Source of the DNA: a virus
DNA length: 26,797 bases
Virus record (IMG/VR): IMGVR_UViG_3300020156_000073
Span: 1 to 26,797 of that record
Direction: 5' to 3' (one strand)
The notes beneath the pieces were generated by a model, which saw nothing but the letters and a program-made list of their open reading frames with translations, ran no database searches and was not told the origin of the DNA. A program made the translations under genes and the position numbers. The stretch's first letter is position 1. Every line of letters begins with the position of its first letter. Positions 6,446 through 18,173 of the stretch are shown here, piece after piece.

Positions 6446-8263
6446 GTGCTCAAAGACGTTTCCCTCCACCTAGTCGAGACATACGAGGACGTGACCGCGT
6501 GCCTGGAATGGCTCTCCACGACCCAGAGTGACCGGCTGGGGTTCGACACCGAATCCACGGGCCTGAGCCCCGAGACGGACACGGTACGGCTCGTCCAGTT
6601 CGGCGACGCCTTCCACGGGTGGGCCTTCGAACTTCACCGCTGGTTCGGACTCGCCGAAGAGGTCATCCGGCGTTGGATCGCCTCCGGCCGCCGGTTCGTC
6701 GGCCACAACGCCCGCTATGACGTGGCGATGCTGCGCAAGCACGGTATCCACGTTCCCGTACACCTGGTGGACGACACCATGATGATGGCCCACATCGCCA
6801 ACCCCACGGTCTCCATCGGCCTGAAGCAACAGTCTTCGCGCCACGTGGACCCCCGAGCCGCCGCGATGCAAGGCCAGTTGGATGCGGTTATGCGCTCGGG
6901 GAACTGGGGTTGGGCGACGGTTCCCGTGGCTACCACGGGGCCGGTGGCCGCGTACTGGATTTACGCCGCTCTGGACCCGGTGCTGACCGTCCGTTTGTGG
7001 AACCACCACGCCCCGTCCGTCCTCTCCGAATCTCCGCGCGCCTACGACCTGGAGGTGTCGGTGGGCTGGATCGCGGACCGCATGGAACGCGCTGGCCTCC
7101 TCCTGGACCGCTCCTACACCCTGAACCAGGGGGAGGAGTTCGCCAAGATGTACGACGACCTCACGGCGCAGTGCTACAACGACCACGGCGTGAACCCCGG
7201 CTCCAAGGAGGAGATCGTCCGGGCCTTCCTGGAAGACGGCGTGGACCTGTGGAAGCTCACCCCCACCGGGGACTACTCCCTGGACAAGGACGTAATCCGG
7301 GGCGTGAACCACCCGCTCGCGCGCCTCATCGAACAGCGCCGGAAGGTGGAGAAGCTGAAGTCCACGTACCTCCGGCGGTTCCTGGAGTACTCCCAGCATG
7401 ACGGACGACTCCACCCGAGTATCAACACGTTGGGCTTCGCTGAGCAGTCGGCCGGGGCCTTCGGGGTGGTCACCTCGCGTATGTCGATGTCCCACCCCAA
7501 CCTCCAACAACTCCCCCGAGGTAAAGACCCGCTGTCGCGAGTGATCCGTAACTGTGTGATCGCCGAAGAGGGGAAGACGCTCCTCATGGTGGACTTTGAC
7601 CAGGTGGAGTTGCGCATCATGGCCCACCTGTCGGCGGACCCGGGGCTAGCCGCCGCCTTCGCCACGGAGGACGACTTCTTCACGACGCTGACCAGGGGTA
7701 TCTACAAGGACCCCCGGATCACCAAGGAGGACCCGAAGCGCCAGCTCACGAAGTCGTACGTGTACGCCACGTTGTACGGGGCCGGGAACGATAAGCTCGC
7801 CACGACCACGGGCGTTCCGCTCGCCGAGATCGAAAAGCTGTCGGCCGACTTCGCCGCGTCCTACTCGGGGGTTCCCGCGTTCCAGCGCGAAGTCCAGCGC
7901 CGGGCCAAGGAGCGCGCCCAGACCGAAGGATTCCCGTACTCGCGGTCCCCGCTCACGAACCGGCGTTTCATGGGCGAAGAGGGCAAGGAATACAAACTGG
8001 TCAACTTCACCATTCAGGGAATGGCCGCCGAGATCCTGAAGATGAAACTCCTGGAGCTGGACGCGGCGGGGCTCGGGGACGTGCTCCGGCTCCCGGTCCA
8101 TGACGAAGTGATCGTGGAAGTGCCTCACGAGGACGTGGCCGAAGCCGTCCACATCATGAACAGCGTGATGAACGACGACAAGCTGTTGTCCATCCCGCTC
8201 ACGGCGGGCGTGTCCATCGGCGAGCGATGGGGAGAGAAGAAGGATTATGTCGAAGCCGCGTGA
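6446..8263 (+). CDS. Family A DNA polymerase with 3'-5' exonuclease domain
   Basis: This 605-residue polymerase resembles DNA polymerase I without the 5' nuclease. In the N-terminal exonuclease domain the DxE motif is intact (FDTESTGL, residues 33-40), as are GHNARYD (N88, D92) and a YAALD near residue 175, so proofreading should be active. The polymerase motifs follow: motif A MVDFDQVELRIMAHL near 380, motif B with KSYVYATLYGAG near 440, and motif C LPVHDEVIVEV near 550. The GTG start is set by GAAGGAAGGA just upstream. It is the phage replicative polymerase and opens the replication operon; its end overlaps the RuvC-like gene by 17 bases. Strong assignment. Confidence 0.95.
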   Translation: MLKDVSLHLVETYEDVTACLEWLSTTQSDRLGFDTESTGLSPETDTVRLVQFGDAFHGWAFELHRWFGLAEEVIRRWIASGRRFVGHNARYDVAMLRKHGIHVPVHLVDDTMMMAHIANPTVSIGLKQQSSRHVDPRAAAMQGQLDAVMRSGNWGWATVPVATTGPVAAYWIYAALDPVLTVRLWNHHAPSVLSESPRAYDLEVSVGWIADRMERAGLLLDRSYTLNQGEEFAKMYDDLTAQCYNDHGVNPGSKEEIVRAFLEDGVDLWKLTPTGDYSLDKDVIRGVNHPLARLIEQRRKVEKLKSTYLRRFLEYSQHDGRLHPSINTLGFAEQSAGAFGVVTSRMSMSHPNLQQLPRGKDPLSRVIRNCVIAEEGKTLLMVDFDQVELRIMAHLSADPGLAAAFATEDDFFTTLTRGIYKDPRITKEDPKRQLTKSYVYATLYGAGNDKLATTTGVPLAEIEKLSADFAASYSGVPAFQREVQRRAKERAQTEGFPYSRSPLTNRRFMGEEGKEYKLVNFTIQGMAAEILKMKLLELDAAGLGDVLRLPVHDEVIVEVPHEDVAEAVHIMNSVMNDDKLLSIPLTAGVSIGERWGEKKDYVEAA

Positions 8264-14317: not shown

Positions 14318-14340
14318 CCCCCGGGTTGACAGCCCGGGGG
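14318..14340 (+). terminator. Hairpin whose loop is the -35 box of the next promoter
   Basis: A perfect 8-bp stem (CCCCCGGG/CCCGGGGG) closes on a 7-base loop, TTGACAG. The loop contains the whole consensus -35 of the promoter for the tRNA array. It follows the winged-helix gene by 23 bases and probably ends its transcript. Confidence 0.65.
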
Positions 14341-14354
14341 GACTCTGATAGATT
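14326..14354 (+). promoter_or_regulatory. Strong sigma-70-type promoter for the tRNA array
   Basis: TTGACA and TAGATT are 17 bases apart, and TGA precedes the -10 (extended -10). This is the best promoter match in the window. It drives the 22-codon leader ORF at 14394 and probably the tRNAs beyond. Confidence 0.85.
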
Positions 14355-14393: not shown

Positions 14394-14462
14394 ATGTCTG
14401 ACAAGCCCTGGGATGACCTGGACTGGGAAAACGGGCAAGACATCGACGTTGACTTAAGGTAA
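14394..14462 (+). CDS. 22-residue leader peptide ahead of the tRNA array
   Basis: ACGAAAGGA precedes an ATG that opens 22 codons. The peptide is acidic with two tryptophans (DKPWDDLDWENGQDIDVD), then ends with TTA and AGG codons before TAA. TTA is very rare in Streptomyces and is read there by the developmentally controlled bldA tRNA; AGG is also rare. The array downstream encodes an Arg(CCT) tRNA that reads AGG and starts with a Trp tRNA. Its position between a strong promoter and the tRNAs suggests a sensing or coupling role (inference). It may also simply be a small protein. Confidence 0.55.
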   Translation: MSDKPWDDLDWENGQDIDVDLR

Positions 14463-14676: not shown

Positions 14677-14741
14677 GACGCGGTAGCTCAGTGGCAGAGC
14701 ACCCCTTGGGGAGGACCCGGGTTCGAATCCCGGTCGCGTTA
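14677..14741 (+). pseudogene. Malformed tRNA, Pro(GGG)-like, about 7 bases short
   Basis: Acceptor stem, D arm (GCTC/GAGC) and T arm (CCGGG-TTCGAAT-CCCGG) are normal. Only 16 bases lie between the D and T arms, against the usual 22-23. The anticodon region reads ACCCCTTGGGGAGGAC, which cannot form a 5-bp stem with a 7-base loop; TTGGGGA resembles a proline loop. Acceptor and D arms resemble the tRNA-Ile(GAT) at 17095. It is probably a damaged tRNA or a tRNA-like RNA. Confidence 0.6.
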
Positions 14742-15205: not shown

Positions 15206-15310
15206 CGTACACAACTTCACACAACGCGCTTTCTAGCGGGGGTGTTTCGATCCTTTCTGACCCGCAAGCGCATGGGCTCCAGGCGTCTCGCTAACGCCGT
15301 CCGAGTCCAG

Positions 15311-15831: not shown

Positions 15832-15845
15832 CTGTACAACTTCAT

Positions 15846-16118: not shown

Positions 16119-16190
16119 CGAGATGTGGCCCAATGGTAGGGCACCTGATTTGGGATCAGGGGGCCGAAGGTTCGATTCCTTCCATCTCGA
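16119..16190 (+). tRNA. tRNA-Pro(TGG)
   Basis: Perfect acceptor CGAGATG/CATCTCG and anticodon arm CCTGA-TTTGGGA-TCAGG giving TGG. It supplies the proline decoding that the malformed gene at 14677 probably cannot. Confidence 0.92.
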
Positions 16191-16192
16191 CT

Positions 16193-16264
16193 GTGGCTGT
16201 AGCTCAGTGGTAGAGCGCCTGAATGTGACTCAGGATGCCGTGGGTTCAACTCCCACCAGTCACC
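16193..16264 (+). tRNA. tRNA-His(GTG)
   Basis: The anticodon arm CCTGA-ATGTGAC-TCAGG gives GTG, and discriminator C73 fits His. The base before G1 is T, so the extra G-1 that histidyl-tRNA synthetase uses is not encoded. Confidence 0.88.
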
Positions 16265-16358: not shown

Positions 16359-16442
16359 GCTCCGATGGCGGAACTGGAAGACGCCCCAGGCTCAGACCCT
16401 GGTGTCCGTAAGGGCGTGAGAGTTCGAATCTCTCTCGGAGTA
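16359..16442 (+). tRNA. tRNA-Leu(CAG)
   Basis: A class II tRNA with a long variable arm (TGTCCGTAAGGGCGT). The anticodon arm CCAGG-CTCAGAC-CCTGG gives CAG. The only leucine tRNA in the array, reading CTG. Confidence 0.9.
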
Positions 16443-16446
16443 CTAC

Positions 16447-16519
16447 GCCCTGGTAGCTCAGCGGATAGAGCGACGGTCTACGAAGCCGGAGGTCGGTGGT
16501 TCGAATCCACCTTGGGGCA
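16447..16519 (+). tRNA. tRNA-Arg(ACG)
   Basis: Loop CTACGAA gives anticodon ACG, which needs host A-to-I editing to read CGC. The anticodon stem has one A-G mismatch at its outer pair. Confidence 0.88.
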
Positions 16520-16856: not shown

Positions 16857-16873
16857 CGTAACAACTTCATCAC

Positions 16874-17613: not shown

Positions 17614-17636
17614 AGCAACAACGACGAAAGGATGAC

Positions 17637-18140
17637 ATGACGTACGAAGAGTACGAACCAGACCACTACCTCCAGCCCATCACGCTGGAACAGGAAACGT
17701 ACCTGTGCGACATTGACGGGACACTGACCTGGAGGCACCCGGACAACCTGGAGTTTTCCAACACTCGGGGTATCCACGAGTACCACCGGGTCAGTGAGGA
17801 CATGTACCACCCCGACGTGTTCAACACGGTGGGGGCCCTCCAGCAAGCCGGAGCAAAGATCATCTTCGTGTCCGGTCGGCCGGAGTCGTGCCGCAAGGAC
17901 ACCGAAGCGTGGATCAACGCGCCGGAGATCCTGAAGACGGACCGGGACAACCCGCTGTACATGCGGACCACCGGGGACCGAAGGCCGGACACGATCGTCA
18001 AGCGCGAGCTGTTCGACAAGTTCATTCGGCCCCAGAACCTCTACATCCTGGGCGTCTTCGATGATCGGAACCGCGTCGTGAAGATGTGGCGCGAACAGCT
18101 CGGCCTGACCGTCTTCCACGTCGCGGACCACGACTTCTAG
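17637..18140 (+). CDS. Polynucleotide 3'-phosphatase (T4 Pnkp C-terminal type, HAD fold)
   Basis: A 167-residue HAD-superfamily phosphatase. CDIDGTLTW (D25, D27) is the catalytic motif, IFVSGRPE near residue 81 is motif II, and VFDDRNRVVKMWR near 141 is motif III. The DDR-V--MWR pattern is the mark of the T4 polynucleotide kinase 3'-phosphatase domain. The 5'-kinase P-loop domain is absent. T4 Pnkp with RNA ligase repairs tRNA cut by host anticodon nucleases. Here the gene lies 23 bases after the last tRNA with its own AAAGGA site, so it is probably cotranscribed with the array. An ATG at 17632 runs into a stop at once, so 17637 is the start. An RNA ligase is not in this window. Confidence 0.85.
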   Translation: MTYEEYEPDHYLQPITLEQETYLCDIDGTLTWRHPDNLEFSNTRGIHEYHRVSEDMYHPDVFNTVGALQQAGAKIIFVSGRPESCRKDTEAWINAPEILKTDRDNPLYMRTTGDRRPDTIVKRELFDKFIRPQNLYILGVFDDRNRVVKMWREQLGLTVFHVADHDF

Positions 18141-18143
18141 CAC

Positions 18144-18173
18144 TTGACGGGGGCCGTTCCCACAAGTTATCTT
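18144..18173 (+). promoter_or_regulatory. Promoter after the phosphatase gene
   Basis: TTGACG lies three bases after the stop, with TATCTT 18 bases downstream. GACGAAGGACG and an ATG at 18216 follow at normal distance. Confidence 0.65.

Follow-up and report, generated by a model that had tools for sequence, protein, structure and literature searches.

A kinase-less 3'-phosphatase gene at the end of a viral tRNA array: mending or clearing of RNA ends?

Introduction

The PNKP-type phosphatases of phages are by default read as tRNA repair enzymes, and are annotated as 'polynucleotide kinase'. In phage T4, Pnkp (PseT) and the ligase Rnl1 repair tRNA-Lys that has been cut by PrrC, and repair of this type requires both a 5'-kinase and a ligase. 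One question raised by the locus described here is what such a phosphatase does when it has no kinase half and stands directly behind an array of tRNA genes. The gene lies at 17637-18140 on the + strand of a 26.8-kb piece (GC 63%) of IMG/VR virus record IMGVR_UViG_3300020156_000073, the whole of which is called the window. A sequence-only reading had proposed a tRNA repair unit, in which a full replacement tRNA set and an end-healing enzyme share one transcript as a dual answer to tRNA-cutting defence. The evidence assembled below points, tentatively, to a different best explanation: a free-standing 3'-phosphatase that would work without ligation, opening RNA 3' ends for host PNPase or other 3'-enzymes.

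The phosphatase gene and its product

The gene and its HAD motifs lie as follows:

17637..18140, + strand: stand-alone PNKP-type HAD 3'-phosphatase gene, 167 amino acids, ATG start, identified by Pfam, PHROG, phmmer, a structure model and conservation in the relatives L001 and L002
17709..17723, + strand: HAD motif I, D25-I-D27-G-T, invariant in alignments A2, A7 and A8
17871..17879, + strand: HAD motif II region, S79-G80-R81, with R81 invariant and G80 in >90%
18000..18002, + strand: HAD motif III lysine, K122, invariant
18060..18068, + strand: HAD motif IV, D142-D143-R144, with D143 and R144 invariant and D142 in >90%

That the product is a Pnkp-type 3'-phosphatase without its kinase half, as first proposed, is upheld by profile, sequence and fold. 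The Pfam family HAD_PNKP (PF25109) matches residues 20-167 at 6.6e-37, covering positions 2-143 of the 143-position profile with a score of 127.3 bits against a curated cut-off of 27.6, and is thus a full-length domain match. The match to PHROG 505 (8.8e-40) is confined to the C-terminal half of that profile (positions 155-295), the part in which a complete Pnkp carries its phosphatase, and phmmer against PDB sequences finds bacterial Pnkp1 (2.9e-15) and T4 Pnkp (1.6e-10), in both cases through their phosphatase halves only. A P-loop 5'-kinase domain is absent from the 167-residue protein, to which all of these matches bring the phosphatase half and nothing else, and the gene directly upstream is tRNA-Cys. 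An AlphaFold model built from 61 aligned sequences (pLDDT 90.3, pTM 0.87) finds its best folds in Pnkp1 (4xru, 4xrp), T4 Pnkp (1ltq) and the isolated T4 phosphatase domain (5uj0, target TM 0.87).

Across 62 aligned relatives D25, D27, R81, K122, D143 and R144 are invariant, and there is support for a predicted active site that could heal RNA 3' ends. The open reading frame (ORF) has a third-position GC of 0.87, and its dN/dS relative to the L001 copy is ~0.40, as in clearly functional neighbouring genes (0.17-0.45); the gene is therefore maintained, under purifying selection. Judged by its sequence, then, 17637-18140 is an intact 3'-phosphatase gene without a kinase.

Two known systems help to place it. 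With T4 Pnkp the window protein shares fold and catalytic motifs, and it differs in having no kinase domain, in the lack of a ligase in a relative (see below) and in its position as the final gene behind an array of tRNAs. The best structural match of all comes from the bacterial Pnkp1-Rnl-Hen1 RNA repair complex (4xru, 4xrp), from which the window gene differs in that no kinase or ligase partner was found for it; no search was aimed at Hen1.

PHROGs 505 and 415, both named 'polynucleotide kinase', take in stand-alone PNKP phosphatases, and many phosphatase-only genes of phages may have been mis-named as kinases.

Attachment to the tRNA array

The array, and the signals that would bound a common transcription unit, are:

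14326..14354, + strand: probable promoter, TTGACA-17-TAGATT with TG before the second hexamer, 10/12 consensus positions, within a block identical in L001
14490..17613, + strand: tRNA array of 26 tRNAs found by ARAGORN, for 20 amino acids, and one truncated tRNA-like element; kept in L001
17540..17613, + strand: tRNA-Cys(gca), the final tRNA of the array, found by ARAGORN
17626..17632, + strand: ribosome-binding site GAAAGGA between tRNA-Cys and the ATG, in the block CGACGAAAGGA kept in L001 and L002
18147..18191, + strand: strong hairpin immediately past the phosphatase stop, a probable unit end or operator (-34.2 kcal/mol, z -5.2)
18144..18173, + strand: promoter-like site of the next unit, TTGACG-18-TATCTT, overlapping the hairpin, 9/12 consensus positions, present in L001 with a 17-nt spacer

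The phosphatase ATG at 17637 follows the end of tRNA-Cys by 23 nt, just as had been claimed. In L001 and L002 the phosphatase, at 77% protein identity, likewise comes after tRNA-Cys, and in all three members of this clade it closes the tRNA unit. The L001 array has the order and content of the window array except for one Arg anticodon (cct/tct) and two swapped Lys genes.

A single transcript that runs through the array and ends with the phosphatase is likely, given the conserved promoter ahead of the array and the strong hairpin just past the stop codon. The hairpin is conserved with its pairing preserved (z -4.6 for the L001 copy), and inside the window's tRNA array no terminator-like site was found; the L001 array contains one weaker promoter-like site. 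The physical attachment asserted by the sequence-only reading is thus confirmed, and co-transcription is probable on the strength of these signals. Its 'full replacement tRNA set' is correct for amino acids, all 20 of which are covered, and overstated for codons: by standard wobble the set decodes 40 of 61 codons, amounting to 72% of phage codon use, and with superwobble (four-way reading by U34) 48 of 61, with ACC, CTC and TCC still uncovered. A codon-complete replacement set was accordingly rejected.

Kinase and ligase genes in the window and a relative

Rnl1 was not found in the window, and the larger ORFs of this fragment likewise gave no kinase or ligase. A broader view is offered by G001, a syntenic relative of 62,169 bases without end repeats that carries portal, major head, tape-measure, lysis-type and replication genes. 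By this content its genome looks nearly complete, with the terminase not specifically identified. Searches of G001 found no Rnl1, Rnl2, RtcB or AAA_33 kinase, and no DNA ligase. The proposal of a tRNA repair unit is not supported, because the 5'-kinase and ligase on which repair of the T4 type depends were found neither in the window ORFs searched nor in G001. For the same reason it appears more likely that the enzyme helps to clear RNA fragments than that it helps to mend tRNAs.

Stand-alone and kinase-fused phosphatases in other viruses

PNKP-type HADs are usually fused to a kinase (PMC7824862). When viral contigs were scanned with the family alignment, 80 loci came up, about half of them encoding the phosphatase alone; among viral contigs the stand-alone PNKP phosphatase is a common form, and a missing kinase half is not rare in itself. 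Co-occurrence was surveyed in 50 viral records with a PNKP phosphatase domain (32 kinase-fused and 18 stand-alone, any of which may be fragments), searched for Rnl1, Rnl2, RtcB and AAA_33. An RNA ligase is present in 28 of the 32 kinase-fused records and in none of the 18 stand-alone ones (Fisher p 4e-10, a value that kinship among the sequences makes too small, with one independent pair on well-supported branches). The direction of the association is uniform. On the tree there are about nine changes between the fused and stand-alone states, with the window clade placed among fused forms on weak support, and a phylogeny-corrected test of fusion against ligase has too few independent pairs to decide. 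The survey suggests a large class of phage PNKP phosphatases that have neither kinase nor RNA ligase, and so some other role.

A general link between stand-alone phosphatases and tRNA genes was rejected: in nine other stand-alone genomes with tRNAs, permutation showed the gene to lie no closer to its nearest tRNA than chance would place it (combined p 0.16), and four stand-alone genomes have no tRNA. Attachment to the array is a feature of the window's clade, not a general rule. The enzyme family, phage tRNAs, phage Pnkp with ligase, and phage Ro proteins are all already known; as far as the searches went, two findings are apparently new: that a stand-alone form has become fixed as the closing gene of a tRNA array, and that stand-alone records consistently lack an RNA ligase.

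Other tRNA-rich viruses make an instructive comparison. The Samistivirus phages of Streptomyces, such as Samisti12 (RNA ligase, full Pnkp, many tRNAs and a Ro protein), and the virus L065/G038 resemble the window lineage in combining tRNAs with a PNKP phosphatase domain. In Samisti12 and L065/G038, however, Pnkp is kinase-fused with an RNA ligase close by, whereas the window lineage has the phosphatase only. At L065 4479-6429 (+) the RNA ligase and fused Pnkp genes overlap by 8 nt inside a 20-tRNA array; by its gene content this locus is a complete replace-and-repair unit of the kind first imagined for the window, in another virus.

A proposed role without ligation

As envisaged in the preferred explanation, the free-standing polynucleotide 3'-phosphatase, which probably acts on 2',3'-cyclic phosphates too, would be made from the end of the tRNA-array transcript and would turn the 2',3'-cyclic or 3'-phosphate ends of RNase-cut tRNA halves and mRNA pieces into 3'-OH. 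Such ends would then be open to host PNPase, or to CCA-adding and other 3'-enzymes, and the phage tRNAs would stand in for those lost as the fragments are removed and recycled. In T4, study of the pseT1 mutant, in which only the phosphatase activity of Pnkp is lost, showed that the phosphatase contributes to 3'-end RNA decay, an effect ascribed to the need of PNPase for a 3'-OH (PMC3014915). If clearance of RNA is the true role, the enzyme is a candidate for the step by which cyclic-phosphate tRNA halves become degradable by PNPase, and phages have a second way to live with anticodon nucleases.

G001 encodes a TROVE/Ro60-type protein (L151:124-1785, -), and two Y-RNA-like elements (L151:1845-1954 and 2132-2199, -) lie immediately upstream of its gene in the same orientation, with possibly further related hairpins farther upstream. 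The elements show a permuted T-arm/acceptor/D-arm order and long closing stems, and match YrlA at 40.9 bits (E 6.8e-7) and 32.8 bits, for an Rfam threshold of 69. YrlA was not found near the Ro genes of three further records (L100-L102) in the stretches searched. Within the window's own array, two YrlA matches (16126-16250 and 16417-16471) coincide in part with tRNA genes, a consequence of the way YrlA mimics tRNA; a Y RNA there was rejected. TROVE proteins are known with tRNA-like partners (PMC7824862), and in Deinococcus the Ro protein Rsr and a Y RNA tether PNPase for the decay of structured RNA (PMC6181284). G001 resembles this Rsr/Y RNA/PNPase (RYPER) machine in its TROVE protein and upstream YrlA-like RNAs, and differs in that its version is phage-encoded, lies outside the window, has sub-threshold Y RNA scores and is linked to PNPase by presumption. 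In G001 such a particle could help to feed structured fragments to PNPase.

Taken together, the parts possibly form a coherent reading, in which the virus would replace and clear: a tRNA array and a 3'-phosphatase on one transcript, with a phage Ro60/Y-RNA particle, would answer tRNA-cutting defence by passing tRNA halves to PNPase, or silencing them as signals, and not by ligating them. The phosphatase would here supply the conversion to 3'-OH, a step that must be done by other enzymes (PMC7790460). As a whole this extended scheme seems unlikely.

Several points weigh against ligation-independent clearing and its extension. The window is a fragment whose missing part could hold a kinase or ligase, and absence was read from a single relative, in which alone the Ro/Y-RNA locus was seen, the window not spanning that region. 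Both YrlA scores fall below threshold, and 4 of the 5 TROVE records in the survey carry a fused Pnkp, so Ro is not confined to stand-alone records. To these may be added the kinship among the surveyed sequences and the activity of PNKP phosphatases on DNA ends as well as RNA.

Alternative explanations

That last property underlies the strongest rival, itself rather unlikely: that the enzyme takes 3'-phosphates off DNA breaks so that the phage DNA polymerase can prime. Yeast Tpp1 and plant ZDP are stand-alone DNA 3'-phosphatases, PNKP-type enzymes without a kinase that resemble the window protein by description. The operon upstream of the array is one of replication and recombination (DNA polymerase A, SNF2 helicase, PD-(D/E)XK nuclease and AAA_24), and stand-alone forms are present in phages that have no tRNA. 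However, unlike Tpp1 and ZDP, the window gene has no DNA-end context and is tied to a phage tRNA array; in all three clade members it ends the tRNA unit and not the replication unit; moreover, G001 is without a DNA ligase, and DNA ligase occurs in only 1 of the 18 stand-alone records.

Repair after the manner of T4, with the phosphatase healing 3' ends and a kinase and ligase of the host, or undetected ones of the phage, finishing the work, is improbable. The missing kinase, Rnl1, Rnl2 and RtcB in G001, and the uniform absence of RNA ligase from stand-alone records, outweigh an enzyme family shared with T4 Pnkp, attachment to a tRNA array and the existence of full repair units with tRNAs in L065 and Samisti12. 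Nor does RtcB offer a way round, as its substrates are 3'-phosphate or cyclic ends, and by this established biochemistry removal of the phosphate would hinder joining.

There is likewise a slim chance that the enzyme removes a signal, destroying 2',3'-cyclic-phosphate tRNA fragments or small 3'-phosphate nucleotides that are read by a host sensor. Such a task suits a lone phosphatase without a ligase, and host signals of this kind have been proposed for jumbo phages together with phage counter-enzymes (PMC7824862), but no specific signal is known for the host and a PADLOC search gave no defence-family match.

Finally, the gene could be a remnant, the surviving half of an earlier Pnkp that persists as a functionless passenger of the adjacent array. 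This reading would fit the weakly supported placement of the clade among fused forms and is very improbable, as it is contradicted by the selection measured on the gene, its intact frame and motifs, and the conservation of its own ribosome-binding site.

Gene layout, host and other features

In the left part of the window the + strand carries the family A DNA polymerase, SNF2 helicase, nuclease and AAA_24 genes named above and a DUF669 gene; these replication-type genes are followed by the tRNA array and the phosphatase, and then by DUF6011 and WhiB genes, beyond which the - strand holds DUF5047 and tape-measure genes. The host is probably an actinobacterium, because the close phage matches of the window proteins are phages of actinobacterial hosts; no cultured phage is near the window virus. 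A genome scan for host or prophage copies of the phosphatase gave distant matches in Bdellovibrio-like metagenome-assembled genomes only.

Within the array, the truncated tRNA-like element at 14677-14741 (+) scores 52.1 bits against RF00005 and was missed by ARAGORN; its anticodon arm is ~10 nt, apparently without a normal anticodon loop, and no counterpart was found at the corresponding position of L001. A 22-codon ORF (14394-14462, +), located after the array promoter and ahead of tRNA-Trp, is not conserved in L001. By eye, a spacer motif like ACAACTTCA is repeated between tRNAs (15210-15220, 15835-15845 and 16858-16870) and recurs upstream of the Ro gene in G001, where, as in the array, it may be a processing site. 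The L001 array, for its part, has an HNH endonuclease gene (7017-7400, +) inserted among its tRNAs that is absent from the window.
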